A DNA stretch of 64,000 nucleotides from contig JALVVN010000007.1 in the NCBI GenBank assembly GCA_027023405.1, positions 82,307-146,306 on the forward strand, given 5' to 3'. The stretch is from Campylobacterales bacterium (GTDB lineage: Bacteria; Campylobacterota; Campylobacteria; Campylobacterales; QNZT01). Below the pieces are notes generated by a model that was given only the letters and a program-made list of their open reading frames with translations, was not told the origin of the DNA and made no database searches. A program made the position numbers and the translations under genes. Position 1 is the stretch's first letter. Each line of letters begins with the position of its first letter. Below are positions 374-21,235 of the stretch, in pieces.

Positions 374-1369
374 TTAGCAAATCCGCGGTAATAACTCCCC
401 TGTCGGCAGATCCAAAAAGCGTTTTGTACCCCATGTGGAGTTGAGGATCACCCGTCCGGGGTGTGCAGTGGTGACTTTCCCGATGATTTGAGCGCTTTGG
501 TGACTTTTTCGCATCACTTCCAGCGCCTTGTGGGCATCTTTTTGGGGGAGTGCTAGCACAAAAGTTCCCTCATTTGCCAGCATCGTCGCCTCAAATCCCA
601 ACAGTTCGCAAATACCCTGCACCTGCTCCCGCACCGGTATCTTCTCCTCCTCTATCTCGATACAGATATCCGATGCACTCGCCCACTCATTGAGTACCGC
701 TGCTACACCGCCCCGTGTCGCATCTCGCATCGCTACGATCTCCACACCCGCATCGATGAGCGCCTCTACTTCCGGATAGAGAGATTTGCAGTCGGTCTCT
801 AGTGAACTCTCCAAGGCGATCCCCTCTCGCGTCGCAAAGATCGTCGCACCGTGCGCCCCCACATCTCGACTCACGATGATCGCCGTCTCCTCTTTGAGGT
901 TGTGCGATGAGATCCCCTCATAGATCACCTCTCCGATACCGGTTGTATTGATAAAGATTTGATCGACACTCCCTTTGGGTACCACTTTTGTATCACCGCT
1001 GACGATAAGCGCGCCGTTGAGCTCTAGCTCCTTTTTCATGCTCCGCACAATCTTCTCAAGCTCTCTTGTACCAAACCCCTCCTCGATGATCACCGAACAG
1101 GTGAGAAATCTCGGTTTTGCGCCCATCATCGCCAGATCGTTGCAGGTACCGCATACCGCCAGTTTACCGATATCTCCACCGGGGAAAAAGATTGGTGAAA
1201 CGGTGAAACTATCGGTGGTCATTGCACTCTTAGCGCCTAGTTCCAACACTGCCGCATCTTCACTTTGCTCCAGTAGATCATTTTTAAAGTGCTTATAAAA
1301 TATCTTGCGAATGAGCTCTTGATTTTCCGCTCCGCCGTTGCCGTGGGCGATGGTGATAGTCTTATTCAT
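374..1369 (-). CDS. hypE: Hydrogenase expression/formation protein HypE
   Basis: AIR-synthase-like: HGNGGAENQELI, TTDSF, C-terminal PRIC; start chosen at MNKTITIAHGNGG. Confidence 0.95.
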   Translation of the reverse strand: MNKTITIAHGNGGAENQELIRKIFYKHFKNDLLEQSEDAAVLELGAKSAMTTDSFTVSPIFFPGGDIGKLAVCGTCNDLAMMGAKPRFLTCSVIIEEGFGTRELEKIVRSMKKELELNGALIVSGDTKVVPKGSVDQIFINTTGIGEVIYEGISSHNLKEETAIIVSRDVGAHGATIFATREGIALESSLETDCKSLYPEVEALIDAGVEIVAMRDATRGGVAAVLNEWASASDICIEIEEEKIPVREQVQGICELLGFEATMLANEGTFVLALPQKDAHKALEVMRKSHQSAQIIGKVTTAHPGRVILNSTWGTKRFLDLPTGELLPRIC

Positions 1370-2508
1370 AGTAGATTTCCATATTTGTAGTACGCCGCGC
1401 AAGCACCCTCGCTACTCACCATGCAGGAGCCCACCGGTGAGGTCGGCTTGCAGGCGGTACCGAAGATCGTACACTCGGTCGGCTTGGCGATACCTCGCAG
1501 GATATCCCCGCAGATGCAGAGCTTGTGATCCTCGATCTCTTTGATAGGCAAGATATCCCGATACGCCACCTCCGCATCATACGCACTAAATGTCGATTTG
1601 AGTTTGAGACCACTTTGAGGGATATTTCCCAATCCGCGCCACTTAAAGAGATCGACCTTATCAAAATAGTGCGCTATGAGTTTCTGTGCGTTGAGATTTC
1701 CCTCATGCGTCACGACCCGCTTGTACTGAATCTCCAGATCACACCGTCTCTCGACAAACTGCTTGAGTATCATACTAATCCCCTCCATCACATCCACCGG
1801 CTCAAATCCGCTCACCACCACCGGTCGTCCGTAATCCCTGGGAAACTCCTCATAGATCTTACTTCCCGCGATGACACTCACATGACTCGGTCCCAAAAAA
1901 GCGTCGATGCGGTTATTGTAACTATCGACATGCACATCTCTACTGTCGATCAACTCCTTCATCACTTCGGGAACGGTAACATGGTTGATGTGGAAAAGGA
2001 TGTTAGGGATCTCTTGTTTGATCACTTGATCGAGCAAGACGGCGGTCATCGGCGTCGTCGTCTCAAAACCGATCGCAAAGAAAATCACCTTTTTATCCCG
2101 ATTCTCCTGCGCGATCTTCAAACACTCCATCGGCGAATAGACAAAGCGCACATCCGCACCCCTACTCCGCGCATCCTGCAACGATCCGTGCGAACCAGGT
2201 ACTTTGATCATATCGCCCAGCGTCACAAGGATCACACCCTCTTGCATCGCCAAGATATAGGCATGATCAATCCGCTCTTTGGGCATGATGCAGACAGGAC
2301 AACCCGGTCCATGGATAAACTGAATATTTTCAGGCATAAGTTGCGGTAAACCATACTTCATAATGGTATGCGTATGTCCGCCACACACCTCCATGATATT
2401 GATAGTGCGATCGAGTTTTGAGGCATCTTCGGCGATCATCTTTGCGTAGGCTTTGATAGTCTCGCCGTCGCGAAAATCATCATAGAGATTTTTGAGCTCA
2501 AGCGCCAT
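1366..2508 (-). CDS. hypD: Hydrogenase maturation protein HypD
   Basis: MEVCGGHTHTIMKYGL, GPGCPVC, C-terminal Cys cluster. Confidence 0.97.
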   Translation of the reverse strand: MALELKNLYDDFRDGETIKAYAKMIAEDASKLDRTINIMEVCGGHTHTIMKYGLPQLMPENIQFIHGPGCPVCIMPKERIDHAYILAMQEGVILVTLGDMIKVPGSHGSLQDARSRGADVRFVYSPMECLKIAQENRDKKVIFFAIGFETTTPMTAVLLDQVIKQEIPNILFHINHVTVPEVMKELIDSRDVHVDSYNNRIDAFLGPSHVSVIAGSKIYEEFPRDYGRPVVVSGFEPVDVMEGISMILKQFVERRCDLEIQYKRVVTHEGNLNAQKLIAHYFDKVDLFKWRGLGNIPQSGLKLKSTFSAYDAEVAYRDILPIKEIEDHKLCICGDILRGIAKPTECTIFGTACKPTSPVGSCMVSSEGACAAYYKYGNLL

Positions 2509-2797
2509 CTAATCCCCGATTTTCGCAGTTCTCATCATCCAAGATCGCCTGCCGACGCTCCTCCTCATCCATCACTTCGAGTATCTCTTTATAGGTCTCG
2601 ATCGACTTGAGTGCTTCGGCTTCATCGATCTTATTCATCACAAAGCCGATATGAAGCAGGACATAATCTCCCACCTGCACCTCATCATCGCCCATCATCA
2701 TCAAGTTTGCCTCTCGTTGCACACCCATCGTATCGACTTTGCAGAGAGTCTTATCTTCGCTGATCTCGACCACTTTACTTGGAATAGAGAGACACAT
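2498..2797 (-). CDS. hypC: HypC/HybG/HupF-family hydrogenase chaperone
   Basis: MCLSIPSKVVEI N-terminus, GDYVLLHIGFVMNKIDEAEA. Confidence 0.95.
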   Translation of the reverse strand: MCLSIPSKVVEISEDKTLCKVDTMGVQREANLMMMGDDEVQVGDYVLLHIGFVMNKIDEAEALKSIETYKEILEVMDEEERRQAILDDENCENRGLDGA

Positions 2798-3561
2798 TAG
2801 CGCATCCCCTTCTTAAACTTGATCCAATCCGCGACGCGTTTGATACTCTCGATATCATTGATATTGACTTCGAGGATATCGACATTGGGTTTGATCTTGC
2901 GCGCTTGGGCTTTTTCCGCTTCGATATCGTACTTGAAGTAAGGCAAGAGATCGGTTTTGGTAATGAGTACCAGATCTGCTTGGCGAAACATCACCGGATA
3001 TTTGGCGATCTTATCTTCACCTTCGGGAACAGAGACAAGAACGATATTTAGATGCGTACCGACATCATAACTGGCAGGGCAGACAAGGTTTCCGACATTT
3101 TCGACAAAGAGCACATCGATCTCATCGAGCGGAATATGATGTAGCCCTTTATGCACCATAAAGGCATCCAAATGGCAGGCACTACCCGTCTGTATCTGCT
3201 CTGCGGGAATGCCTTTGGCACTGAGCCGATCGGCATCTTTGTTTGTCTCCAAATCTCCCTCAACCACACCAAATCGAAAATCCGCCACATCCGCCAAATA
3301 CTCTAGTAGCGTCGTCTTACCGCTTCCGGGACTGCTCATGAGATTGATCCCCAGCACGCCCGCTCTATCAAGATGAGCGCGATTGTGCCCCGCTTCATGA
3401 TCATTTTTATCTAAGATCTTTTGAATAACCGAGATCGTCTTGGTATCGTTGAGCTGTGGATTGTGATGCAAATGCTCATGCGCCTTTTGGTGATCGTGAC
3501 TATGATCATGATCGTGTGAATGCCCCTCTCCTGTGATGGAACAACCGCAATCTTTACACAT
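2797..3561 (-). CDS. hypB: Hydrogenase nickel-insertion GTPase HypB with His-rich N-terminus
   Basis: MCKDCGCS, HSHDHDHSHDHQKAHEHLHH, P-loop SSPGSGKTTLLE. Confidence 0.97.
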   Translation of the reverse strand: MCKDCGCSITGEGHSHDHDHSHDHQKAHEHLHHNPQLNDTKTISVIQKILDKNDHEAGHNRAHLDRAGVLGINLMSSPGSGKTTLLEYLADVADFRFGVVEGDLETNKDADRLSAKGIPAEQIQTGSACHLDAFMVHKGLHHIPLDEIDVLFVENVGNLVCPASYDVGTHLNIVLVSVPEGEDKIAKYPVMFRQADLVLITKTDLLPYFKYDIEAEKAQARKIKPNVDILEVNINDIESIKRVADWIKFKKGMR

Positions 3562-3576
3562 ACTAATTCTCCTCCC

Positions 3577-4215
3577 CTATCCTAATAATATATTTGTACC
3601 CACTACCAGTGAGATAAGCCCCGCAACGGCAAAAGTTCGCCTGACATTTTGAATATTGTCCAAGAGGTGCTCGTTGATGTAGAGTATCACAAAACCAAAT
3701 GTCAAAAAGATCAACATCACACCCGCCGTAAACGCACCGACCATACTCAGATCGACATGCCCGCCATGCACCGCACCCAGCGTCACCAACATCCCGCGCA
3801 CTCCGCCGATCCCCATCAAAAGCCCCATCGTAAAGGATGAAGCGCTATCGACATTATCATGCGTATGCGCCTTGCCAAACCAGATATGCACATGCTCCAC
3901 ACCCTCATGCAAGTGCTTTGAGAGGTGAATACGATCGGCAAAAACCATATAGAGCAGATAGACTCCCATCCCGATGATCACCGAAGCACTGATGAGATCC
4001 CCATACGCCAAAATCTCAGGAGAGATCTCCACGCGCTCCAAAATCTTCGCAAAGACAAAGAGACTCAACCCATGCCCGATCGCAAAAAGCATCGTAATCA
4101 ACAAAGTCTTTCGCTTCTCCTTACCGATCGAAAAGTCAGCGATCGCCGTCAAATGATCCGGACCAAACGCATGCAAAATACCATACCAAAAAATCACCGT
4201 AAGTGAAAGTTCCAT
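3577..4215 (-). CDS. NicO/RcnA-like nickel/cobalt transporter
   Basis: HAFGPDHLTAIADF and AIGHGLS motifs, multiple TM segments, His-rich loop; start at MELSLTV preceded by GGAG. Confidence 0.75.
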   Translation of the reverse strand: MELSLTVIFWYGILHAFGPDHLTAIADFSIGKEKRKTLLITMLFAIGHGLSLFVFAKILERVEISPEILAYGDLISASVIIGMGVYLLYMVFADRIHLSKHLHEGVEHVHIWFGKAHTHDNVDSASSFTMGLLMGIGGVRGMLVTLGAVHGGHVDLSMVGAFTAGVMLIFLTFGFVILYINEHLLDNIQNVRRTFAVAGLISLVVGTNILLG

Positions 4216-4224
4216 CTCCTCTCC

Positions 4225-4238
4225 TGAATAATCATTCA
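4225..4238 (-). promoter_or_regulatory. Candidate operator TGAATGATTATTCA downstream of TATAAT (minus strand) before nicO-hypBCDE
   Basis: Inverted repeat TGAAT-N4-ATTCA, identical to 14762..14775. Confidence 0.5.
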
Positions 4239-4274
4239 TTCATTATACAATTTTTATCATTTAAGTTCGACTAT

Positions 4275-8365: not shown

Positions 8366-10285
8366 TCACAAAAACTGCGCCCCATACACACTACTCTCCC
8401 TCCCAATCGGATAGTTTTTATTGAGGATCGGTTTTTGGAGTGCGAGGTTTCTCTGAATTCTGCCCCAGAGCGATTGGTTGGCGAAGGCTCTTCCGCTAAG
8501 CGTAAGTGTCTGGGTTTTGGTTTTGCCCAGTAACTGTGTAGCGATATCGGCGATATAATCTCCAAAACTCTCAAAGATACTATAGCAGAGAATCGGCTGC
8601 TGGGCACCGCTGAGTTTGTAGCTCATCAGTGAAGCCAAAAAGGCGTAATCATTAAAGCGATTGTCGGTCACTTTTGTATCGATCTGCATACCGCCCTTAC
8701 CCAAAAAGCTAAGCGCACTCTCCGATATCCCCTCAAAACTCTCATCCTCCAGCTCCAAGAGAATCGCCGTTACCCGAAAGAGATCGACCTCACCGCTCAA
8801 GTGATCGATACGCGCATACAGATCGGGAAATTTTGCGCGAAAATTCTCGACCAAGCGATCCGAACCCTCACGAAGTTCCCGAATATGTGCGAAAAGATTA
8901 TCCGCTTCAAAGGCTCTTGGAGGCACGACATCGATCACTGACTTTTTGTTATAGTAGAGGAAGTGGAGACGATCATCAAAATGGACTCCAATCGCCCCCT
9001 CCCCCAACTTCTCATGCTCCGCCAAAACACTAAGCATCGACGCTTCGGCTACGCTAAACGAAACGGCATCTTTTACCCTACTCCGCTCTCCTTGCGCGAC
9101 ATAGACCTCTTTGGCGGGAATCTGCGCAAAGAGCTCCGCACGATCAATGATCTTACCCATATCTGTATCCGCACAGACCAAGCCGGATGCGATACTCACA
9201 CGATCGCGCTTACCTCCCTGCACCGCTTTAGGAAAGATTGTTCGCTCACCGTCAATCAAAAGAAAAGTATCTTGATTGATAAAGAGTCGAAAATCCTTCT
9301 GTGGTGTAATAGGCAAATCAAAATCGACCAAAAAATCCCCCTCTTCGCCCTCTTCACACGCTTCATAGACGATATACTCCAATCCCGCATTGATGAGCTC
9401 TCTGGCTAAGAGCATACTCATCCCCTCATCGGGGTATTTCGTCCAGACACTGCTACCGAAATGCGATTTGGCTTCATCGCTCTTAGTCGCGATGCGAAGC
9501 AGAGGGCGCTCGATCGATAGCAGGGCGTTAAACTCCTGAACGACCAACATCAAATGTCGATTGAGCGCATTGACATCGGCGATAAAGAGAATCGCTTTGG
9601 GGTTAACCTTGCCTTCGGGTTTGTAAAATTTTCGATATCCGTGCAAGGTTTTCATGACGACGCTTTTGCCTTTGGCGATCGCCCTCGCACTCACTTCAAA
9701 AAGCTGGCGATAAGTACCTTTGTCATTGGCATATCGTTCACTCTTTTTATCGACCATGCGCAGGGCAACCCCGCAATCGATACATGAGATGAGCGGATAG
9801 GATTTTCGTAGCGGATTCATCTGCATCTCCTTCTTGCACGCTTCACACGGCACCAAAAACTTCATCACACTATTTGCACGAGAAAGGGGGTGCTGTGTCA
9901 AAAAGGCGTGATGCGCACCGCAAGCATTACAGGAGGTAAAGGGGTAGTAGTAACGACGACTAGAGACATCAAACATCTCCTTTTGACAACTCGGACACAA
10001 AGAGAGATCAAGAGGGAGATCATCGATCGCAATCGCTTTGATCTGAGGCTTCTCTTCACTCACAAAGTGACGACTCCCTTTGAGATAGATCGAAGCGGGT
10101 AGCGTCTCTTCGACCTGCTTCAAAAACGATTCTAATTTTGGCTCATCCTTTTGGGAGATCAGCACGATCTTCTCTTTCTCAAAGCCGATCTCCAGATCGA
10201 TATCACTCGCATCGATCAACGCTTTGATGAGTGCATAGAGATAACTTTTATTACTACGAAAGTTTAGTTCAACGATAAAGTACAT
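8366..10285 (-). CDS. hydE: HydE-like hydrogenase accessory protein; HypF-related with four CxxC zinc-finger motifs
   Basis: Position after hydABCD; CPSC/CNAC and CEAC/CIDC pairs resembling the HypF zinc fingers; degenerate Kae1-like region. Confidence 0.7.
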   Translation of the reverse strand: MYFIVELNFRSNKSYLYALIKALIDASDIDLEIGFEKEKIVLISQKDEPKLESFLKQVEETLPASIYLKGSRHFVSEEKPQIKAIAIDDLPLDLSLCPSCQKEMFDVSSRRYYYPFTSCNACGAHHAFLTQHPLSRANSVMKFLVPCEACKKEMQMNPLRKSYPLISCIDCGVALRMVDKKSERYANDKGTYRQLFEVSARAIAKGKSVVMKTLHGYRKFYKPEGKVNPKAILFIADVNALNRHLMLVVQEFNALLSIERPLLRIATKSDEAKSHFGSSVWTKYPDEGMSMLLARELINAGLEYIVYEACEEGEEGDFLVDFDLPITPQKDFRLFINQDTFLLIDGERTIFPKAVQGGKRDRVSIASGLVCADTDMGKIIDRAELFAQIPAKEVYVAQGERSRVKDAVSFSVAEASMLSVLAEHEKLGEGAIGVHFDDRLHFLYYNKKSVIDVVPPRAFEADNLFAHIRELREGSDRLVENFRAKFPDLYARIDHLSGEVDLFRVTAILLELEDESFEGISESALSFLGKGGMQIDTKVTDNRFNDYAFLASLMSYKLSGAQQPILCYSIFESFGDYIADIATQLLGKTKTQTLTLSGRAFANQSLWGRIQRNLALQKPILNKNYPIGRESSVYGAQFL

Positions 10286-10297
10286 AGAAGCCTCTTT

Positions 10298-10849
10298 TTA
10301 GTGATAGAATGATTGTTGCGGATTTGCGTAATGTTCGATAACCGTATCGAGCGAAACGGGGGAAGATGTCTGCTGAAGTTCGATGTGATGTCGGCGCAAT
10401 ACCGCTAAAGCCTTCTCAACCATGGATGCGAATGATTTTCGAACGATCGGCGTCACATTTGTCTCAACCGGTACAATATCCCCCGGATGCATCGCAACAA
10501 TCTCGATCTCTGCCATCTCATCATCATCCAAGATCGAGCAGATCTCCAGCATCTGTGCTACTTCCACCTCATTGGCGCTTTGGCGGATACTCCCCTGCTC
10601 CAAGAGTTCAGCTTTGCAGAAGTGAAAAATCTCACCGCTTTTACCCTCGGAAGTCGTACTCAAAATGAGAATCAAATCATACTCCCTAAAGAGCGTCATC
10701 AATCCAAATCCAAGCGCACCGCCGTCGATAATATCTACACCAAAGGGTATATGGTAGTTTCGCTTAAGGTATTCAGCGGCAAAAACACCCAAACCGTCAT
10801 CGCAAAACATAATGTTCCCGATGCCAATGATCGCGCACCGCTTCATCAT
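10298..10849 (-). CDS. hydD: Hydrogenase maturation endopeptidase (HyaD/HybD family)
   Basis: IIGIGNIMFCDDGLGVFAAEYL and IIDGGALGFGLM motifs; between hydC and hydE. Confidence 0.92.
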   Translation of the reverse strand: MMKRCAIIGIGNIMFCDDGLGVFAAEYLKRNYHIPFGVDIIDGGALGFGLMTLFREYDLILILSTTSEGKSGEIFHFCKAELLEQGSIRQSANEVEVAQMLEICSILDDDEMAEIEIVAMHPGDIVPVETNVTPIVRKSFASMVEKALAVLRRHHIELQQTSSPVSLDTVIEHYANPQQSFYH

Positions 10850-11584
10850 TTAATTCTTGTCTCTGGGTACAAATTTATTACCGCCGAATGCGATCGAGAT
10901 ATCACCCTCTTGCCAAAAAATCGTTCTCCACACTTGGTAGTAGATATGAAACACTACCCAAACAATAATAACCCACATCAGCATATGATGCACAATTCTC
11001 ACATCCATTATCGATGCTACCGGTCCACCTCCTAACACTGAATGTGTCGCAGGTATCGTCCAATCCGTCACCAAGTGCAACATCCACGGCCACCATCTCC
11101 CGATACTGCTCTCTCCCGATTCCAAACCATGCACATAAAGCTGAAGTCCTGTAAAAAGCATCAATGCCAACAGGATATGGAAGATCGTAAAATAAACCGT
11201 ATTGAAGCTATCGCTATGCGACGAATCAAAACTCTTTTTACGATTAAAGGTGAGTAGATTGACCAGTACAGCAAAAAACTCTTTGATATTGGTAGGCGTG
11301 GGCAAAAGCTTGAGGATCGGCTTCTCAAATCTCGAAAAGAAGAAGAGATACGCCACGATGATCGAAGTCACATCGAAAATAATCGCAACGATAAAGTGCC
11401 CCCATCGATTCCACGCCATCACATACTTATCGACTGCCGATTCGGCGATGAGTGTCTGATAATAGGGCTCAGCGATATAGAACCCCGTAATAATCGCCAC
11501 CACCATTGAAATGGCATTGACCCAGTGGATGATCCGCATCGCACCGGTCATTCGCTTGACATTTTTATAGGCTATCTGTTTCAT
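10850..11584 (-). CDS. hydC: Ni/Fe-hydrogenase b-type cytochrome subunit
   Basis: MRIIHWVNAISMVVAIITGFYI; HMLMWVIIVWVVFHIYYQVW. Confidence 0.95.
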   Translation of the reverse strand: MKQIAYKNVKRMTGAMRIIHWVNAISMVVAIITGFYIAEPYYQTLIAESAVDKYVMAWNRWGHFIVAIIFDVTSIIVAYLFFFSRFEKPILKLLPTPTNIKEFFAVLVNLLTFNRKKSFDSSHSDSFNTVYFTIFHILLALMLFTGLQLYVHGLESGESSIGRWWPWMLHLVTDWTIPATHSVLGGGPVASIMDVRIVHHMLMWVIIVWVVFHIYYQVWRTIFWQEGDISIAFGGNKFVPRDKN

Positions 11585-11593
11585 TTTGGCTCC

Positions 11594-13501
11594 TTAGAAG
11601 GTGCAAGTCGGATCGACTTTATAGACGGCTAACTCTTTGCCTTTGGTGTCGAGTACATGCACGGCACAGGCGATACAGGGATCAAAGCTATGGATTGTTC
11701 GAATAATCTCCAATGGCTCCTCCGGATTGGCAACTTTTGTACCGATGAGACTCGCTTCATAGGCACCCAACTGTCCTTTATGATCTCGTGGTCCTGCATT
11801 CCAAGTCGATGGAACTACTGCCTGATAGTTGATGATCCTTCCATCTTTGATTCTGACCCAGTGTCCCAACGCACCTCGTGGTGCTTCGGCAAGTCCCGCT
11901 CCTTTTGAATCCGCCGCAACTTCATCAAAATCAAACTCCGTCCAAGTCGAGAGATCACCGCTTGCAGCATTTTTCGCCAGCTCATCGACCCACTCCATCA
12001 TAACATCGCCCATCAACTCTGTTTCGATAGCCCTCGCCGCGGTTCGACCGACAGTCGAGAAGAGTACCGTGATAGGTAAGCCTGATCGCTTGAGGAAATT
12101 TCCGACATACTTTTTGATTCGCTCATCGCCCTTTACATAACCGACTACCATTCGCGCAAGTGGCCCCACTTCGACAGGCTTACCGTCATAGCGAGGAGAT
12201 TTGATCCATGAATACTTCTCATCTGTTTTGAGATAGGCATATCCATCCTCTCTCTTCTCAAGACCGGTATAGTGCGGTACCGTTTGCCCCTCATAGGGAT
12301 GAAGCGGTTTATCGCCCTCATACCATGAGTGTGTCACATCCTCCGTGATCTTTGAGGGATCGAGTTCATAAGCTTTGGAGATATCACCATCTAGGACAAG
12401 ACCTGAAGGAAAGAGATTTTTAGCTTTATAAAAACCGCTATCATCCAATTTAAAATCTCCGTAACTCATATAGCTCAACAATCCTCCGCCGGTTCCACCG
12501 ACACCTTTATAAGTCGCATCTTTATCCGTCGCCTCTTTGGCATAGGCGGTTCCCGCCATATAAACATCCGGAAGATAAGCACCTTTGACAAACTCCACAC
12601 CATCTTTGAGGAGTTGCTTAAAGAGAGCAATTCTTGCCGGGTTTTGGATATCCTGCACACATGTCACGCCACCCACGACGATCGATTGCGGATGCGGATT
12701 TTTTCCGCCGAAGATCGCTTGCATCTTTGCCAAATCTCTTTGGATGTCAAGCGCTTTGAGATAGTGCGCGACACCGATGAGATTTTGTTCAGGGGTGAGC
12801 TGATAGTGTTTATTCCCCCAATATCCGTTACCGAAAATTCCCAATCTTCCCTGCTTTGCAAACTTCACAACACGATCTTGCACCGCTTTAAAGTCCGCCT
12901 CTGCAGAGATATAGGGTTTATGTCCCGCGACTTCTGCCCATTTGACCGCCTCTTGGGCAGTTTTGGCAGGATCGGCTTTGGTAGCAGAAAGTACATCGAC
13001 AAAGTCGAGTGCGTGTAGATGATAAAAGTGCACCAAGTGATCATGCACATAGAGCGCTCCTTGGATCAAGTTTCTCACAAGTCGCGCATTTTTAGGGATC
13101 GTAATCTTAAAGGCATCCTCTACCGCTTCGATACTTCGCTGATAGTGCGTACCGGTACAGACACCGCAAATTCGCATCGCTAAAAGCCCGGCATCTCTAG
13201 GGTCTCTTCCCTTCAAGATCGTCTCGATGCCTCTAAACATCGTAGAGGAGCTGTAAGCATCTACGATCTTATTGTTCTCATCAATGATCGCTTCGATTCG
13301 CAAATGCCCCTCGATTCGCGTAATAGGATCGACAATGATATGTTTTTTACCACCCTTTGAGCTACCCTTTTTCTCACTATTTTCATTACTCTGTGTCGCT
13401 TTAATTTCACTCTCTTTTGTCTTGCTCCCACTCTCTTGACTCTTTGCCGTTGCATTGATATCGCTTTTCATCGCCTCTTGTGTCGTATTGTTCTCACTCA
13501 T
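11594..13501 (-). CDS. hydB: [NiFe] hydrogenase large subunit, group 1
   Basis: RICGVCTGTHY and C-terminal DPCIACAVHV...VDPTCTF; start may be internal given low-complexity N-terminus. Confidence 0.96.
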   Translation of the reverse strand: MSENNTTQEAMKSDINATAKSQESGSKTKESEIKATQSNENSEKKGSSKGGKKHIIVDPITRIEGHLRIEAIIDENNKIVDAYSSSTMFRGIETILKGRDPRDAGLLAMRICGVCTGTHYQRSIEAVEDAFKITIPKNARLVRNLIQGALYVHDHLVHFYHLHALDFVDVLSATKADPAKTAQEAVKWAEVAGHKPYISAEADFKAVQDRVVKFAKQGRLGIFGNGYWGNKHYQLTPEQNLIGVAHYLKALDIQRDLAKMQAIFGGKNPHPQSIVVGGVTCVQDIQNPARIALFKQLLKDGVEFVKGAYLPDVYMAGTAYAKEATDKDATYKGVGGTGGGLLSYMSYGDFKLDDSGFYKAKNLFPSGLVLDGDISKAYELDPSKITEDVTHSWYEGDKPLHPYEGQTVPHYTGLEKREDGYAYLKTDEKYSWIKSPRYDGKPVEVGPLARMVVGYVKGDERIKKYVGNFLKRSGLPITVLFSTVGRTAARAIETELMGDVMMEWVDELAKNAASGDLSTWTEFDFDEVAADSKGAGLAEAPRGALGHWVRIKDGRIINYQAVVPSTWNAGPRDHKGQLGAYEASLIGTKVANPEEPLEIIRTIHSFDPCIACAVHVLDTKGKELAVYKVDPTCTF

Positions 13502-13502
13502 C

Positions 13503-14744
13503 TTACGCCTCCTCTTCTACTTTACTCTTTTTGCCAAATATTGCACTTCCCGCCGCATGCAGTCCGATACCGATACCCGCAGCCGTCAACAATCCTAAAC
13601 CAAACTCATCCACCGTCTTCTCGACACCGCCCGTAGGCGCTTTGATATTGGCATTTGCCATCGGTCGCTCATAGGCATATTTATCCCAAAAGTCTGGTTC
13701 AGAACAGCCGATACACCCACGACCGACACCCACCGGCCAGTTAACTCCTTCGTTATAACGGATAATCGAGCAGTTGTTGAAAGTCATTGGTCCTTTACAA
13801 CCCATCTTATAGAGGCAGAAGTTATTTTTCGCACCCTCATCGCCCCACTCTTCGACAAATTCGCCCGCATCAAAATGCGCGCGTCGCTCACAGTTGTCAT
13901 GAATACGATACCCAAACGCAAACTTCGGTCTTAGGAGTGAATCGAGCTCTGGCACTTGACCTGTCAAGACATAGTGGAGAATCACACCGACCATATTGGA
14001 AGGATTTGCGGGACAAGCGGGAATATTGATGATAGGCTTTCCTTTGACCATATCCATCACACCCACCGCATCGGTAGGGTTAGGAGCTGCAGCAGGCACA
14101 CCGCCGAATGTCGCACAACTTCCTACCGCCACCACCGCAGCAGCATCTTTGGAGAGTCGTAATAGATGATCTTGAAAAGTCTCCGCTTTCGCACCGATAG
14201 TACCGTAATGACCGTCAATACCTCGTGGAACAGAACCCTCTACAAAAAGTAGATATTTCCCTTTAAAAGTCTCAATCGCATCCTCAAGCTGCTTCTCCGC
14301 CTGATGACCTGACGGTGCCATCAAGGTTTCGTGAAACTCCAAGGAGATAATATCAAGCACAATCTCGTCGATCTTAGGTCCGTCACTTCGCAAAAGCGCC
14401 TCCGAGTTACCCGCACAATCCTGAAGCTCGATCCATACCACCGGCACACGGTTCATCAACTCCGCCGCTTCAGCGACAAGCGGGGTAAATGACGCCGGCA
14501 ACATCAGCATCGCCGTCGTAGCGGAAGCCCACTTTAAAAAATCTCGACGATCGAACCCCTCATCAAAAATCGCATTTTTAAAATCGATACGATTGCTTAC
14601 CGGAGGTAGCGCTCTCAAAGCATCCAATCTCGCTCGACACTTCTCAAAAAGCGCCTCATAGTACGCTTCACCTCTATTTGTCTCAACTTTTGCACTCTGG
14701 GAAGTGAAAAGCCTCTTTACCGACTCGATCCGCTTATCGCTCAT
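13503..14744 (-). CDS. hydA: [NiFe] hydrogenase small subunit, Tat-exported, C-terminal membrane anchor
   Basis: Tat motif RRDFLKW, FeS-cluster Cys motifs, C-terminal hydrophobic tail. Confidence 0.96.
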   Translation of the reverse strand: MSDKRIESVKRLFTSQSAKVETNRGEAYYEALFEKCRARLDALRALPPVSNRIDFKNAIFDEGFDRRDFLKWASATTAMLMLPASFTPLVAEAAELMNRVPVVWIELQDCAGNSEALLRSDGPKIDEIVLDIISLEFHETLMAPSGHQAEKQLEDAIETFKGKYLLFVEGSVPRGIDGHYGTIGAKAETFQDHLLRLSKDAAAVVAVGSCATFGGVPAAAPNPTDAVGVMDMVKGKPIINIPACPANPSNMVGVILHYVLTGQVPELDSLLRPKFAFGYRIHDNCERRAHFDAGEFVEEWGDEGAKNNFCLYKMGCKGPMTFNNCSIIRYNEGVNWPVGVGRGCIGCSEPDFWDKYAYERPMANANIKAPTGGVEKTVDEFGLGLLTAAGIGIGLHAAGSAIFGKKSKVEEEA

Positions 14745-14761
14745 ACCGTCTCCTTTATAAA

Positions 14762-14775
14762 TGAATAATCATTCA
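14762..14775 (-). promoter_or_regulatory. Candidate operator TGAATGATTATTCA just downstream of TACAAT (minus strand) before hydA
   Basis: Identical to 4225..4238, same orientation and similar position relative to the -10 box. Confidence 0.5.
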
Positions 14776-14951
14776 GTATTGTAGGGTAGTTATACTTAGA
14801 TCGGGGTTAAATTTTAGAGAGTAATATAAATGATAGTTATAATTAGGAGTGAATTTATCTGAATATACTACCTAAAATCAATTCAATTCACATTCAATTC
14901 ATATTGAGTTGTTAGTATAAGATTCCATAAAAATTAAATTAAGGATAATTT

Positions 14952-15494
14952 ATGATAACAAAAAAGATACTAACTATCGCAGGAGCCGCACTCCTTCTAA
15001 GCGCAAACGCAATCGCAGATGCCAACTTAAAGAAAAATCCGGACAATGTCAAAAAAATACAGCAAGCTGCCGGAGAGAAAAGTCCCTACTATCGCACAAA
15101 AAAAGAGGCTTTTCCAAAAGACTACTTCCTCGTAAGTCAAAACCTCCCGTTTTTGGTCGGTGTTGCGCTTTTTCACCCCAACAGTGACACACTTAAACTC
15201 GATAAAAAACAGCTCGAAGCAATCGTAGAGATCAAGAAAACAACCGTGCCCGTCTCTGTAAAAATGGCAAAAGAGATTAAGGCGATGGAGTTAAAATTGG
15301 CAAAAGCGATCTTGGAGGAGAAAAAAGATCCCAAAAGCCTCTATGAATTGGTCGATAAAATTTCTAAAGCACGCACGGATCTTACCAAAGCACATCTAAA
15401 TTGCATCCATAAAATCCAAAACATTCTCTCAGATGCGCAGTATAAGGTACTATTAAAACTAGCTGCGACACCTGCCAACCCTAGCACAAAATAG
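14952..15494 (+). CDS. Periplasmic Spy/CpxP/ZraP-like helical protein
   Basis: Signal peptide, helical region with KLDKKQLEAIVEIKKTTVP ... LSDAQYKVLLKL. Confidence 0.5.
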   Translation: MITKKILTIAGAALLLSANAIADANLKKNPDNVKKIQQAAGEKSPYYRTKKEAFPKDYFLVSQNLPFLVGVALFHPNSDTLKLDKKQLEAIVEIKKTTVPVSVKMAKEIKAMELKLAKAILEEKKDPKSLYELVDKISKARTDLTKAHLNCIHKIQNILSDAQYKVLLKLAATPANPSTK

Positions 15495-15555: not shown

Positions 15556-16833
15556 TTAATGTGTCGTACACACCGAACAGACATCAAATGTCTTAAAAAT
15601 AAACTCCGCCAACGCTCTATCATCTGTACCGATCATCGCCTGCTGTGAGACTCCAGGCATTTCGCGTGTACCTTGGCTGAGATTCCACTGAGTCGGGGTA
15701 ATGATCTGCCATTTTTGAATTTGCCCCTCTTGGAGCTTCACACGATGGATGAGCGATCCGCGTGCCGCTTCCACCGCGCCGACTCCCTCGGCGCTCGCTC
15801 TTTTGATACTTTGCGGCGGTTCGATCCATGAGGGTTGGCGCAAATCGATTTGAGAGAGGAGAAGGAGTGAGTGGTGCAGGAGCTGAATCGTTTCGCAACT
15901 TCGTGCGAGAATACGACTAAAGAGACTATCGCCGTAGCGCCTGTGGGCATCTTTGATGAGCGGTGTCTTGAGGAGCATCGCACGGCTGAGCGGTCCTACT
16001 TCATAATACTTCTGTTTGTAGGTGACATTTTGCGCAAGAGAGTCACTGTTTGGCGACACTTCAACAAAGCGCTCCGAGATGTGGGGCTGAATACGCGTCT
16101 TGATTGACTTACCCCGCTGAAAGTAGCGACTCTCACCAAAGACGATAAAGCGATCAAAACTCCTCCCCTCACTCTGCCACCCCTTTTCCAAAAGGAGGTT
16201 GAGCAGTTGGGGCAGATCGCCCTGATGCGAGAGAAGCGTCTGCGTCTTTTCACACCCAAGCAGTCGGGTTGTATCCGCTACTACCATATGTTTTTCGAAA
16301 AAGGCGATCACCTCCTTAAGGAGATTTCGCACCGAGAGGATCTCGATAGAGGTCGGTTCAGAGGTGATACCGCCCACAATAGCATAGGAGTTGTGCGGAT
16401 ACTGCCCCGCCAGATATGCGATTGCCTGTGAGATGAGACGGGAAACCTCAGAAGCAAATAATACTTTTTGATCTAGCTTCAGTTGTGGTAACAGTGTCAA
16501 ATAGAACCATTTGAAGTGGTTTTGAATCAGCTCCAGATTGAGTGTCAGCTCACGGATAATCGAAGCTTTGGGGCTAATCTCCAACCCTTCGATGCAACTC
16601 TCCAGCGCCTTGACGGTTGCGATCAAGTGCGCATGTCCACAAATACCGCATACTCGGGGATTGATCACCAGCGCATCTTCAGCCGGTCGCCCCTCTAAAA
16701 TCTGTTCGATCCCCCGTTGTGAACCAAAGAGGATATCGACAAACTCGATTCGCTCCTGATCAAAATGAAACTTTAGCGTCGCTTCACCCTCGATCTTTTC
16801 GATCAACTTCGCAACCGTAATCTTTCTACTCAT
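15556..16833 (-). CDS. [NiFe] hydrogenase large subunit, sensor/HupV-like (no C-terminal extension)
   Basis: NPRVCGICGHAHL and terminal FDVCSVCTTH*; start chosen at MSRKITVAKL. Confidence 0.85.
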   Translation of the reverse strand: MSRKITVAKLIEKIEGEATLKFHFDQERIEFVDILFGSQRGIEQILEGRPAEDALVINPRVCGICGHAHLIATVKALESCIEGLEISPKASIIRELTLNLELIQNHFKWFYLTLLPQLKLDQKVLFASEVSRLISQAIAYLAGQYPHNSYAIVGGITSEPTSIEILSVRNLLKEVIAFFEKHMVVADTTRLLGCEKTQTLLSHQGDLPQLLNLLLEKGWQSEGRSFDRFIVFGESRYFQRGKSIKTRIQPHISERFVEVSPNSDSLAQNVTYKQKYYEVGPLSRAMLLKTPLIKDAHRRYGDSLFSRILARSCETIQLLHHSLLLLSQIDLRQPSWIEPPQSIKRASAEGVGAVEAARGSLIHRVKLQEGQIQKWQIITPTQWNLSQGTREMPGVSQQAMIGTDDRALAEFIFKTFDVCSVCTTH

Positions 16834-17704
16834 CAAACAACCTCTTTTCAAGTCGCCTAATCTTAAACGCTTTGGTCACACCCGAGAGCGTCAGATAGGC
16901 GCGCTTGGGTACATCCAAAGGGAGATACTGAGGGATGCCCATATTTTTTTTGGTGGTATAGAAGTTTCGGCGTGGAAATGTGGGCTCGGTACATCCGTGG
17001 CACGGCTCTCCCGATCGTGTCTTGGAGTTTACGCCGTTCCAGAGAATCTTATTACAACTGCCGCGGGTATAGGGCGCTTGACAGCCGTGATCATAAAACA
17101 TACACCCCTCTTTTTCACCGAAGCGATGGTTATCGACCTTATACTCAAAATACTCATTTCGCGTGCAACCGTTATGCACCGTCCACGCAAAAAATGAGCT
17201 TGGTCGATGAAATGTATCAAGAGGAATCTTCAGCTTCTCTTTGATCATATAGAGCGTATCCGCCAAGAGATCGGGGTGCACCGGACAACCGGAGAGGCTC
17301 ACCACTTTGTCGGCATAAGCTTCAAATCTCCCACTTCTCTCCTCTTGCCTGAAGAGCAAACCGCCGGCACCGTAACCGGGACTTTCGCGAAAGATACCGC
17401 CAAATGTCGCACAAGTGCCGAGTGTGACGATCTTTTTTACCCGTGGGGCGTAGCGCATCAAAATCTCCACAAAGGGATAACCGCCACGCGAAAAATGCTC
17501 AGAAATAGCCCCCTCGATGATCAAGATATCGGTCTCGATATATCTAGCGCAAACCTCCTCCAGAGTATAAGGTGTCTCGATCGCAGGATGGTGTACAAAG
17601 CAAAACTCCTCCAAAAAGCGCTCCATCGAAGCGTAGTTGAGAAACGAGTGTGTGTTACCGTTGCAAGTGAGTCCTTGGATCCAAAGTAGTTTACACTTGG
17701 TCAT
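16826..17704 (-). CDS. [NiFe] hydrogenase small subunit, HupU-like, no Tat signal
   Basis: MTKCKLLWIQGLTCNGNTHSFLN, GTCATFGGI, GCPVHPD, SGEPCHGCTEP. Confidence 0.88.
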   Translation of the reverse strand: MTKCKLLWIQGLTCNGNTHSFLNYASMERFLEEFCFVHHPAIETPYTLEEVCARYIETDILIIEGAISEHFSRGGYPFVEILMRYAPRVKKIVTLGTCATFGGIFRESPGYGAGGLLFRQEERSGRFEAYADKVVSLSGCPVHPDLLADTLYMIKEKLKIPLDTFHRPSSFFAWTVHNGCTRNEYFEYKVDNHRFGEKEGCMFYDHGCQAPYTRGSCNKILWNGVNSKTRSGEPCHGCTEPTFPRRNFYTTKKNMGIPQYLPLDVPKRAYLTLSGVTKAFKIRRLEKRLFDE

Positions 17705-18299
17705 TTTTGAGCGCCTGATAGATATTTCGCGAAATATCATCAATATAGTAGGTCAATTCCTCAGGCAAAATCTCCTCTCCGTGAAGAAAAACCATACCTC
17801 CCAAATATCCCATAAAGAGTCCAAATGCCGAAAAGAAGTCTTGATCGCGCAACTCCCCCTTCCTGACACCCTCTTCAAAGAAGATCATGATCTCTGTGAT
17901 AAAGTCACTCACGCAGATCATCCCCTCACACCCCTCTTTAAAGACTTCACGATTTGCCAAATAAACACGCAGGAAATACTCGATCATCTCCGGTCGATCC
18001 TTGGCGGTGTGAAAGTAGATAGTGACTATTTTATGAATCTTCTCTGCTGATGAAATATCTTCATTATTGATTTTTTGAAGCTCTTTTCCCAAATAGGAGG
18101 AGATATATTTGATGATCTCTTGCGCGAGCATATCTTTGGATTTGAAGTAGTTGTAGAGATTTCCCACACTCATACCGATCGCCTTTGCGATATCGGGGAT
18201 CGTCGTAGTGTAAAACCCCTCTTTGGAGAAGAGTTTGAGCGCTTGGAGCATGATCGCCTCTCGCTTTTGCTCTCCTTTGAGTTTTGAAAACTTTGACAT
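17691..18299 (-). CDS. TetR/AcrR-family transcriptional regulator
   Basis: ALKLFSKEGFYTTTIPDIAKAIGMSVGNLYNYFKSKDMLAQEI helix-turn-helix. Confidence 0.95.
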   Translation of the reverse strand: MSKFSKLKGEQKREAIMLQALKLFSKEGFYTTTIPDIAKAIGMSVGNLYNYFKSKDMLAQEIIKYISSYLGKELQKINNEDISSAEKIHKIVTIYFHTAKDRPEMIEYFLRVYLANREVFKEGCEGMICVSDFITEIMIFFEEGVRKGELRDQDFFSAFGLFMGYLGGMVFLHGEEILPEELTYYIDDISRNIYQALKNDQV

Positions 18300-18302
18300 A
18301 CC

Positions 18303-19634
18303 CTACCCTCCAAATCCGTAAAATTTCGGAAAGATCACTACTGAAGCCAAGATCAGCATCTGAATCACGATAAAAGGGACCACGCCTCTGTAAATATCGG
18401 TCGTCTTGACGCTCGCGGGTGCCACCCCTTTGAGGTAAAAGAGACTAAAGCCGAAGGGTGGTGTGAGAAAGGAGCTTTGGAGATTGAGCGCGATGAGGAT
18501 CGCAAACCAGAGCGGATCGATCCCGATATCCTGCGCAATAGGAAGCAGGATCGGCACAACGATATAAGAGATCTCGATAAAGTCGATAAAAAACCCCAAA
18601 AACATAATAATCGCCATCGAAAGCAGGATAAATCCCCACTTCTCACCCGGTAGATGCATCATAAACTCCGAAACGATATCATCCGCACCGCTATAAACAA
18701 AGACCATCGAAAATGCCGTCGCCCCCACCAAAATAGCAAAGATCATCGCCGTCGTTTTGACGGTCTGCAAACTCGCATCTTTGACCAGCTTAAAGTCTAA
18801 CTTTCGATACATCAGTGCCAACAGAAGCGATCCGAGTGCGCCAAGTGAAGCCGATTCGGTCGGTGTCGCAATCCCCGCAAAGATCGATCCCAAGACCAAA
18901 ACGATCAAGAGCAACGGCGGAATAATTGAGAGCAATAACCCCTTGATATCTCCTTTTGTTCGTTGTGTCTGCATTGCCGGCGCCACATCCTTATCCAAAA
19001 AAGCGACAATCAAAATATAAATGATATACGCCCCTACCAGCATCAAGCCGGGCATCAACGCTTTGGCAAAGAGATCGCCCACCGGTAGCGAAAAGACATC
19101 TGCTAGTACAATCAATACAATCGAAGGAGGGATAATCTGCCCCAGCGTTCCCGCTGCACAAATTGTCCCGCTACTGAGACTCTTTTTGTAGCCGTTTTCC
19201 AGCATCACAGGCAAGGAGATCACACCCATCGCTACGACCGAAGCCCCCACGACACCCGTCGATGCCGCCAAAAGCGCCCCGATCAGCACCGTCGAGACCG
19301 CCAAACCGCCCCGAACCTTTCCAAAGAGCGTTCCCATAGAGCTGAGCATCCGATTTGCCAGCTCCGATTTTTGAAGTACAATTCCCATAAAGATAAAGAG
19401 TGGTACCGCCATCAAAATTTTATTGGTCATGATGGAGTAGATACGAAAGGGCATCATCGAAAACATCGACAAAAACTCATCGTAAAAATCCGCCAATACA
19501 CCACCGTCTGGCATCACCTCAAACCACGCTGCTATCGCACCAAAGAGGATCGAGACCGCACCGAAACTAAAGGCGACAGGGTAGCCTATCACCAGCATCA
19601 AAAGTGCCGCACCAAACATATAGATACCAATCAT
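18303..19634 (-). CDS. dctM: TRAP transporter large permease (DctM)
   Basis: DctM-like multi-TM protein; GTLGQIIPPSIVLIVLAD. Confidence 0.93.
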   Translation of the reverse strand: MIGIYMFGAALLMLVIGYPVAFSFGAVSILFGAIAAWFEVMPDGGVLADFYDEFLSMFSMMPFRIYSIMTNKILMAVPLFIFMGIVLQKSELANRMLSSMGTLFGKVRGGLAVSTVLIGALLAASTGVVGASVVAMGVISLPVMLENGYKKSLSSGTICAAGTLGQIIPPSIVLIVLADVFSLPVGDLFAKALMPGLMLVGAYIIYILIVAFLDKDVAPAMQTQRTKGDIKGLLLSIIPPLLLIVLVLGSIFAGIATPTESASLGALGSLLLALMYRKLDFKLVKDASLQTVKTTAMIFAILVGATAFSMVFVYSGADDIVSEFMMHLPGEKWGFILLSMAIIMFLGFFIDFIEISYIVVPILLPIAQDIGIDPLWFAILIALNLQSSFLTPPFGFSLFYLKGVAPASVKTTDIYRGVVPFIVIQMLILASVVIFPKFYGFGG

Positions 19635-20167
19635 AATATCTCCTCCTCTTCCGCTAATACAGAGGGATTAAGCACCCCTCTCAAAACGGCAATCTGACGC
19701 AAAATATAGGCAAAGGCACTAAAGATGAGAAAGAGAAACGAGATCGGGATCATCGCTTTGATAATCCAGCGATGGGTCAATCCTCCCGGATCGTCACTAA
19801 TCTCATGACTCGTATAGGCATCCATCACAAACTCATACGATCCGTAGATCACCAAAATCGCCAAAGGAATGAGAAAGAGAATGGTACCGATGATATTGAT
19901 CCACGCCTTGGTCTTGGGCGAGAAGCGCTCATAGAGAAAATCGACCCGCACATGCGCATCATCCTTGAGCGCCACTCCCACACCAAAGAGCATCATCACT
20001 CCAAAGATATGCCACTCCATCTCCTGCATCGCGATTGAAGAGTCGTGAAAGATATAACGCATCGCCACATCATAAGCGACATTGAAAATAAGCAGGATCA
20101 TCAGCACCGCCGTCACATATCCGACCCAATCGATCACTCGCTCCATTGCGCGTAGTAGCTTTAGCAT
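19631..20167 (-). CDS. dctQ: TRAP transporter small permease (DctQ)
   Basis: Four-TM small protein overlapping dctM; DDAHVRVDFLYERFSP. Confidence 0.9.
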   Translation of the reverse strand: MLKLLRAMERVIDWVGYVTAVLMILLIFNVAYDVAMRYIFHDSSIAMQEMEWHIFGVMMLFGVGVALKDDAHVRVDFLYERFSPKTKAWINIIGTILFLIPLAILVIYGSYEFVMDAYTSHEISDDPGGLTHRWIIKAMIPISFLFLIFSAFAYILRQIAVLRGVLNPSVLAEEEEIL

Positions 20168-20173
20168 TATCCC

Positions 20174-21235
20174 CTACTTCTTTAACAGATTGAGATAGCT
20201 TCCCTGCATCATCTGCGACCACGCCCGCGCTTTTTTCATATAGGAGAAGTAATCGTCATGAATCTCTTTAAATTTCGGGTTCTTTTTGGCATACGCCGCA
20301 TAGACTTCATCGCTTGCTTTTTTGAGTGCCTCAATGACCGGTTTGGGAAAGGTTTCGACTTTGATCTTGGGATACTCTTTTTTCATCTTCTCCCACGCAT
20401 CGACACTCATCGCGAAGTTTTGGATATACATATCGAATGTTGCCGCTTTCATCGCAGTCACTAGCATCGCTTTGAAGTTGTCAGGAAGCTTTTTCCATGC
20501 GCGTTTATTGATCAAAAACTGCATCTCACTTCCGGGTTCATGCCAACCGGTATAGTAGTAAGGCGCCACCTTGTGAAATCCCATCTTGATATCCATACCA
20601 GGTCCTACCCACTCGAGTGCATCGATCGCACCGCGATCCAGAGAGGTGTAGAGCTCACCGGCAGGGATATTGACCACATTCACGCCCAATTTCGCCATCA
20701 CTTCACCCGCAAGACCTGGAATACGCATCTTCAGCCCCTTGAGATCGGCGACACTCTTGATCTCTTTTCGAAACCATCCACCCATCTGATTTCCGGTATT
20801 TCCTCCCGGGAAGCTTAAGACTTTGAACTTGTCATACACCTCTTTCATATACTTCATACCGTTTCCGTAGTAGAACCACGCATACTGCTCACTCGGTGTC
20901 ATTCCAAACGGCACACTCGTAAACCAAACGGTATTGATATCTTTACCCTTCCAGTAGTAGGAGGAGCTGTGCCCCATCTGATACTGACCACCTTTGACCA
21001 TATCCAAGATCCCCAGCGGTGCTTTATGCTTCTCTTTGCCCTGAACTTTGATGATGAACTTTCCTTTGCTCATCTCTTTGACCATCTCCGCAACCTTCAT
21101 CGGCGGGGTGATGAGCGGTGTCAATGTCGAAGGCCAAGTCGCCGCCAAACGCCACTTCACCTTTTTCGCACTCAAGGGAGAGATTAGCACTGAAACTGTT
21201 AGACCTAGCAACAAAAACTTCTTCATAGAACCCAT
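20174..21235 (-). CDS. dctP: TRAP transporter substrate-binding protein (DctP family)
   Basis: Signal peptide; WRLAATWPSTL...LKGLKMRIPGLAGEVMAKLG. Confidence 0.9.
   Translation of the reverse strand: MGSMKKFLLLGLTVSVLISPLSAKKVKWRLAATWPSTLTPLITPPMKVAEMVKEMSKGKFIIKVQGKEKHKAPLGILDMVKGGQYQMGHSSSYYWKGKDINTVWFTSVPFGMTPSEQYAWFYYGNGMKYMKEVYDKFKVLSFPGGNTGNQMGGWFRKEIKSVADLKGLKMRIPGLAGEVMAKLGVNVVNIPAGELYTSLDRGAIDALEWVGPGMDIKMGFHKVAPYYYTGWHEPGSEMQFLINKRAWKKLPDNFKAMLVTAMKAATFDMYIQNFAMSVDAWEKMKKEYPKIKVETFPKPVIEALKKASDEVYAAYAKKNPKFKEIHDDYFSYMKKARAWSQMMQGSYLNLLKK

Follow-up and report, generated by a model that had tools for sequence, protein, structure and literature searches.

The role of the group 2 [NiFe] hydrogenase of Campylobacterota has long been debated, the enzyme being viewed as a sensor, a ferredoxin reducer or a fermentative enzyme (PMC4584964, PMC2628731, PMC5357620). 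Classical hydrogen sensors of the HoxBC/HupUV type use a kinase (PMC10073562), and in S. multivorans Kruse et al. (2017) already noted a TetR-like repressor directly upstream of hupSL (PMC5357620). We found no earlier description of its operator or regulon in openly accessible literature. The regulon survey of Leyn (2016) was discarded as a prior description, Epsilonproteobacteria being outside its analysis.

We analyzed a stretch of 64,000 nucleotides (the window) contained in an assembly of 2.03 Mb that is 99.93% complete. Its closest named relatives, taken as the best 80 of 299 relatives from a contig scan, are Campylobacterales, mainly metagenome-assembled genomes. The genes tetR, hupU and hupV follow one another on the minus strand (Table 1), with the overlap of tetR and hupU that a first, sequence-only reading of the window had described: the TAA stop codon of tetR (17691-17693) lies inside hupU, whose ATG is at 17704, giving 14 shared bp (17691-17704). 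In turn, hupV (ATG at 16833) overlaps hupU by 8 bp. On the 3′ side of this module, the same strand carries hydABC, a maturation protease gene and a HypF-like gene, then hypF and the nickel transporter-hypBCDE operon. Between hupV and hydA, the plus strand encodes a secreted-looking protein of 180 amino acids (14952-15494) with no Pfam or NCBIfam match. The explanation that we consider probable for this arrangement is that TetR represses an H2-oxidation regulon, while HupUV supplies the H2 signal.

Table 1. Genes of the module, predicted target genes and predicted TetR operators in the window.
Feature	Coordinates	Strand	Description
tetR	17691..18299	(-)	TetR/AcrR-family repressor (predicted), 202 aa, first gene of the module; Pfam TetR_N (PF00440) 3e-14
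hupU (hupS)	16826..17704	(-)	Cytoplasmic group 2 [NiFe] small subunit, 292 aa; Pfam Oxidored_q6 + NiFe_hyd_SSU_C
hupV (hupL)	15556..16833	(-)	Group 2 [NiFe] large subunit, 425 aa; Pfam NiFeSe_Hases
O1, predicted TetR operator	14758..14775	(-)	TGAATGATTATTCATTTA; hydA promoter, exact match; -10-like TACAAT 14778-14783 just upstream, ribosome-binding site downstream
hydA	13503..14744	(-)	Group 1 membrane-bound uptake hydrogenase small subunit; predicted target
hydB	11594..13501	(-)	Uptake hydrogenase large subunit; predicted target
hydC	10850..11584	(-)	Cytochrome b subunit; predicted target
hydD	10298..10849	(-)	HyaD/HybD-type maturation endopeptidase; predicted target
hydE	8366..10285	(-)	HypF-related hyd-operon protein, partial TIGR00143 match; predicted target
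O2, predicted TetR operator	4225..4242	(-)	Core TGAATGATTATTCA at 4225-4238; nickel-transporter/hypBCDE promoter; -10-like TATAAT 4242-4247
NicO/HupN-like nickel transporter (labelled hupE)	3577..4215	(-)	First gene of the hyp operon; predicted target
hypB, hypC, hypD, hypE	374..3561	(-)	Maturation genes; predicted targets

The association of tetR with the hydrogenase genes, on which the sequence-only reading relied, is conserved across Campylobacterales. Among the named loci (best 80 of 299), 79 of 80 have tetR immediately before hupU in the same orientation; in the remaining one the contig piece is cut just before hupU, which starts at its base 3. The tetR stop and the hupU start are no more than 10 bp apart in 70 of the 76 named loci that were measured (best 80 of 299) and in 62 of 63 measured loci of a second set of relatives. 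Given this recurrent position and these short distances, the overlap seen in the window is not due to chance. The second set comprised 149 related genomes, 67 TetR-positive and 82 TetR-negative: TetR and HupU occurred together in 67, TetR alone in none and HupU alone in a single genome, in which the gene is cut by the contig end. Over 45 loci, TetR protein distances tracked those of HupU and HupV (r 0.87 each) and not those of HydA (r 0.13).

No other gene than tetR accompanies hupUV consistently. The genes upstream of tetR vary between loci; hydABC follows hupUV in most of them, its type varying, with either ~70-95% or ~51% identity to the HydA of the window. The TRAP genes adjoining the module (18303-21235) were considered as members and rejected, DctM being absent from the examined flanks of all 80 named loci (best 80 of 299). 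Operon linkage is not obligatory, since in one relative (G042) tetR and hupU are located apart from each other, though both genes are kept, as are the operators. Nearly all of the best 80 of 299 relatives carrying the module are labelled Campylobacterota; it was also detected in contigs whose titles name a Thermoplasmata archaeon and a Helicobacter pylori PMSS1 MAG, which probably reflect contamination or bins with a wrong label. On plasmids, the tetR-hupUV-hyd cluster is present in Sulfurimonas paralvinellae and Sulfurovum mangrovi.

The TetR protein displays the helix-turn-helix domain of its family (PF00440, 52.9 bits for a cut-off of 24) and an all-helical TetR fold in the AlphaFold model (pLDDT 84.7), whose best Foldseek matches are all TetR-family proteins. 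Alignment of hydA upstream regions revealed the palindrome TGAATGANTATTCATT(YA), which has a -10-like box on one side and the ribosome-binding site on the other. In the genome of the window, O1 is its sole exact copy; among the places with at most two mismatches are the promoters of hydA, hyp and hypA, and the remainder of those examined fall inside reading frames. The hypA promoter is also marked by the palindrome in the family of the window. Both O1 and O2 directly follow -10-like boxes, the placement expected for a repressor. Conservation thus predicts a palindromic operator overlapping the target promoters, as is usual for TetR/AcrR repressors, and its placement suggests H2-dependent control of the hydrogenase genes. 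These operators at hydABC and hyp give the module a target that the sequence-only reading did not contain.

The palindrome stands beside the -10 box of the hydABC promoter in nearly every genome with tetR-hupUV. In the hydA upstream regions of the relatives (n=56), a site with at most 2 mismatches out of 15 was found in 47 and with at most 3 in 54, compared with 3 and 48, respectively, of 1120 Markov shuffles; in the hydA regions of the named loci (best 80 of 299), 51 of 53 had at most 2 mismatches. As the consensus was derived from hydA promoters, these counts taken alone are partly circular, which gives weight to independent checks. First, a search of whole genomes found the exact palindrome in 34 of the 149 relatives, all of them TetR-positive, and in 0 of the 82 TetR-negative ones (Fisher 3e-15, uncorrected for phylogeny), while a reversed control pattern gave 4 matches. 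When 298 complete genomes sampled from the class were searched, families f10 and f13, to which most of them belong, gave no match. Secondly, the best site in the hydA promoters of TetR-negative genomes (n=13) still had 4 mismatches. Thirdly, sites were present outside the set used to build the consensus: at nickel-transporter/hyp operons in six loci, at second or further hydABC copies in three, at a hydABC operon not adjoining tetR-hupUV and at a NikM-like nickel transporter. Beyond the module, sites also belong to a divergent hydA and to hypA. Nickel-transporter promoters carried a site with at most 3 mismatches, situated 28 to 45 bases before the start of the match, in 21 of 25 TetR-positive loci, the four others being incomplete (one of which, G001, has an exact site), and in 0 of 5 TetR-negative loci. 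At the level of sequence, the occurrence of the operator therefore depends on that of TetR.

A few sites lie near other genes, namely those for a Cys/Met PLP enzyme and an aldehyde dehydrogenase, a cytochrome c552 operon, and the promoter of a TetR paralogue. The latter belongs to a group of paralogues (42-51%) unlinked to hupUV and has the exact palindrome in its own promoter. A perfect 18-bp palindrome, TGAATGAATATTCATTCA, precedes an operon for a NapC/NirT-type cytochrome and cytochrome c552 in one relative, a possible extension of the regulon.

We infer that TetR is the protein binding the palindrome, and it is very probably the repressor of the H2-oxidation regulon. Kruse et al. (2017) proposed for S. 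multivorans that TetR represses hupSL; a purely local role of this kind agrees with the adjoining, overlapping genes and with the barely detected hupL transcript in that species, but it is highly improbable here, the palindrome being found at hydA, hyp and nickel-transport promoters and not being enriched upstream of tetR. Only 11 of 64 tetR upstream regions had a site with at most 3 mismatches, and most of these share TGCATGAATATTCAAT, which coincides with the start of a divergent hypA; autoregulation through the same palindrome was thus rejected.

Regarding the hydrogenase itself, HupU has no signal peptide and begins at its first cluster motif, as do its homologues, in agreement with the soluble nature of regulatory hydrogenases. 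HupV retains the four cysteines of the Ni-Fe site (CxxC...CxxC) and terminates at DVCSVCTTH with no C-terminal extension of the kind cleaved off in catalytic enzymes, as regulatory hydrogenases do; all aligned large subunits stop ~3 residues after the C-terminal CxxC, and HupV reads D-V/I-C in place of D-P-C. In nearly all HupU members the proximal [4Fe-4S] motif is CxxN (C14, N17) in place of CxxC, with the exceptions of family f15, which alone keeps CxxC, and of three loci with CxxD; this substitution implies an unusual proximal cluster. The C-terminal half of the predicted HupU structure is of low confidence. A second small subunit with CxxD, 38% identical to HupU, was observed in one locus (L140, 3989-4921), where it comes right behind hupE-hypBCD, a large subunit follows it and there is no tetR. 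At the positions of Ile62, Gln67 and Phe110 of HoxC, which form an active-site and gas-channel signature, HupV has Ile64, His69 and Thr113. With a histidine where HoxC has glutamine and no equivalent of the bulky Phe110, HupV is not a textbook sensor. We propose that HupUV may work like a regulatory hydrogenase although its residues place it outside the HoxBC group.

If HupUV senses H2, its partner has to be considered. The sequence-only reading had seen no kinase or NtrC gene near the module, which holds: the nearest histidine kinase (29448-31361) is a membrane-type hybrid without PAS domain. The rest of this nearly complete genome has no HoxJ/HupT-type kinase either, since the matches to C. 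necator HoxJ cover the kinase/ATPase half only and none of the eight kinases scanned combines PAS, HisKA and HATPase domains. For HoxA/HupR, the search returned a single NtrC-type protein, encoded elsewhere in the genome and 37% identical over the shared domains, which is most likely the flagellar regulator FlgR. The idea that HupUV has a distant HoxJ or HoxA partner in this genome was therefore rejected, and TetR is left as the sole consistent partner of HupUV. We see little chance that HupUV signals through an unrecognized kinase or another partner with TetR independent and merely carried along: such a route would follow the classical sensors, and orphan kinases exist in the genome, but none is in the cluster or resembles a HoxJ-like PAS kinase, only tetR consistently accompanies hupUV, and the operator tracks TetR.

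An unlikely but more serious alternative is that HupSL is a catalytic cytoplasmic uptake hydrogenase feeding ferredoxin for the reverse TCA cycle, TetR repressing hydABC and hyp in response to another ligand or redox signal and adjoining hupSL as a fellow hydrogen gene. A ferredoxin-reducing HupSL, compared with Aquifex hydrogenase III, has been proposed for S. denitrificans and S. multivorans (PMC4149538, PMC4584964, PMC5357620). The Ni-Fe site and the nearby conserved histidine are intact, and ATP-citrate lyase is present in 57 of the 67 TetR-positive genomes. However, five TetR-positive genomes that are 99-100% complete have no match for the lyase and another (G143) has a weak one, while 35 lyase-positive genomes are without the module. 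This loose association weakens the alternative and led us to reject the view that the module exists to supply the reverse TCA cycle. Moreover, TetR co-diverges with HupUV and not with hydA, unlinked TetR paralogues mostly have no paired cysteines, and S. denitrificans, in which hupL transcripts are present, showed no soluble H2-uptake activity (PMC4149538).

Returning to HupUV as the input of TetR, a reading that we hold to be likely, the proposed sequence of events is the following. A TetR dimer would bind TGAATGANTATTCATT next to the -10 boxes of hydABC and the nickel transporter/hypBCDE (and of hypA in some genomes), blocking the H2-oxidation genes. HupUV, as a soluble and probably low-turnover [NiFe] hydrogenase, would act as the H2 detector. 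Reaction of H2 at its Ni-Fe site would cause TetR to leave the DNA, with direct contact or redox exchange as the most likely means; production of the uptake hydrogenase and of its maturation machinery would follow. The tetR-hupU-hupV genes may thus form a compact H2-response module.

How the signal would reach TetR is a more tentative matter, and direct contact or redox transfer may well not be the route. In hupUV-linked TetR orthologues, Cys124 and Cys129 are invariant; they lie in a loop that precedes helix 131-146, residues 115-130 being conserved and modelled by AlphaFold with low confidence. As for the paralogues, the one beside a hyd operon retains a CxxxxxC version. In that locus (L099), hydABC is divergent from tetR-hupUV and ends with two more TetR paralogues, one having two cysteines in the same loop. 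It is conceivable, if rather doubtful, that the hydrogenase is the direct input domain of the repressor, electrons from H2 or a redox-driven change in HupU acting on the Cys124/Cys129 loop to bring TetR off the DNA.

The sequence-only reading had proposed TetR as a different output for H2 sensing. Of the two outcomes that it had named as refuting, a HoxJ/HupT-type kinase elsewhere in the genome and a TetR neighbour that is not conserved, neither was observed, which partly supports this proposal, while the sensor assignment is weakened by the several HoxBC hallmarks that HupUV does not have, and an H2 response of hydB was not clear in one species. In that species, S. multivorans, hydB changed only ~2-fold with H2, which was not significant, and the hupL transcript was almost undetectable (PMC5357620), both observations counting against the model. 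S. multivorans is itself able to produce H2, so that the comparison may have lacked a condition truly free of it. For Sulfurovum indicum, upregulation of the membrane-bound hydrogenase during sulfur reduction has been reported. As the operator data name a regulon, a regulator and exact promoter sites, the question of the role of this hydrogenase becomes directly testable.

The pairing of a repressor with a hydrogenase in many Sulfurimonas-related vent and sediment bacteria, with predicted repressor sites at the start of the H2-use genes, suggests a simple one-protein H2 switch instead of a kinase relay. If confirmed, this would be a second, simpler architecture for H2 sensing, spread through major H2- and sulfur-oxidizing bacteria that live at vents, in sediments and at redoxclines, and it would offer a compact component to those who engineer H2 sensors. 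Should the direct input also be true, a gas-metabolizing enzyme would control a one-component repressor with neither kinase nor diffusible ligand.

Among regulators, the TetR protein shares its fold with Bacillus FadR-type TetR/AcrR proteins, and the operator consensus is near-identical to that of Bacillus FadR (TGAATGA-N4-TCATTCA type). Unlike FadR, whose ligands are fatty acyl-CoAs, it is partnered with a hydrogenase and has two invariant loop cysteines. Among hydrogenases, the group 2d enzymes, with Aquifex hydrogenase III (HupSL), are likewise cytoplasmic group 2 enzymes, the Campylobacterota members having been likened to the Aquifex enzyme in the literature only; the literature that we found mentions neither a TetR partner nor a regulon for the latter. 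The S. multivorans tetR-hupSL locus (SMUL_1421-1422) contains the same gene pair, with TetR there proposed to repress hupSL (PMC5357620), whereas the sites predicted here are at hydABC, hyp and nickel-uptake genes. The TetR neighbour was hence already known; the regulon and the one-component output appear to be new. Finally, the HoxBC-HoxJ-HoxA and HupUV-HupT-HupR systems (group 2b), as on C. necator pHG1, have the same soluble two-subunit [NiFe] enzyme with no signal peptide and no large-subunit extension, and on pHG1 a regulator gene likewise immediately precedes the small-subunit gene, hoxA sharing 4 bp with hoxB, with uptake hydrogenase genes near. HupV is 25% identical to HoxC and HupU 32% to HoxB; they differ by the histidine and Thr-type residues at HoxC Gln67 and Phe110, by the proximal Cys to Asn change and by the absence of the HoxB-type C-terminal tail in HupU. 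Where those systems rely on a PAS kinase and an NtrC activator, the module described here would have a TetR repressor as its output.
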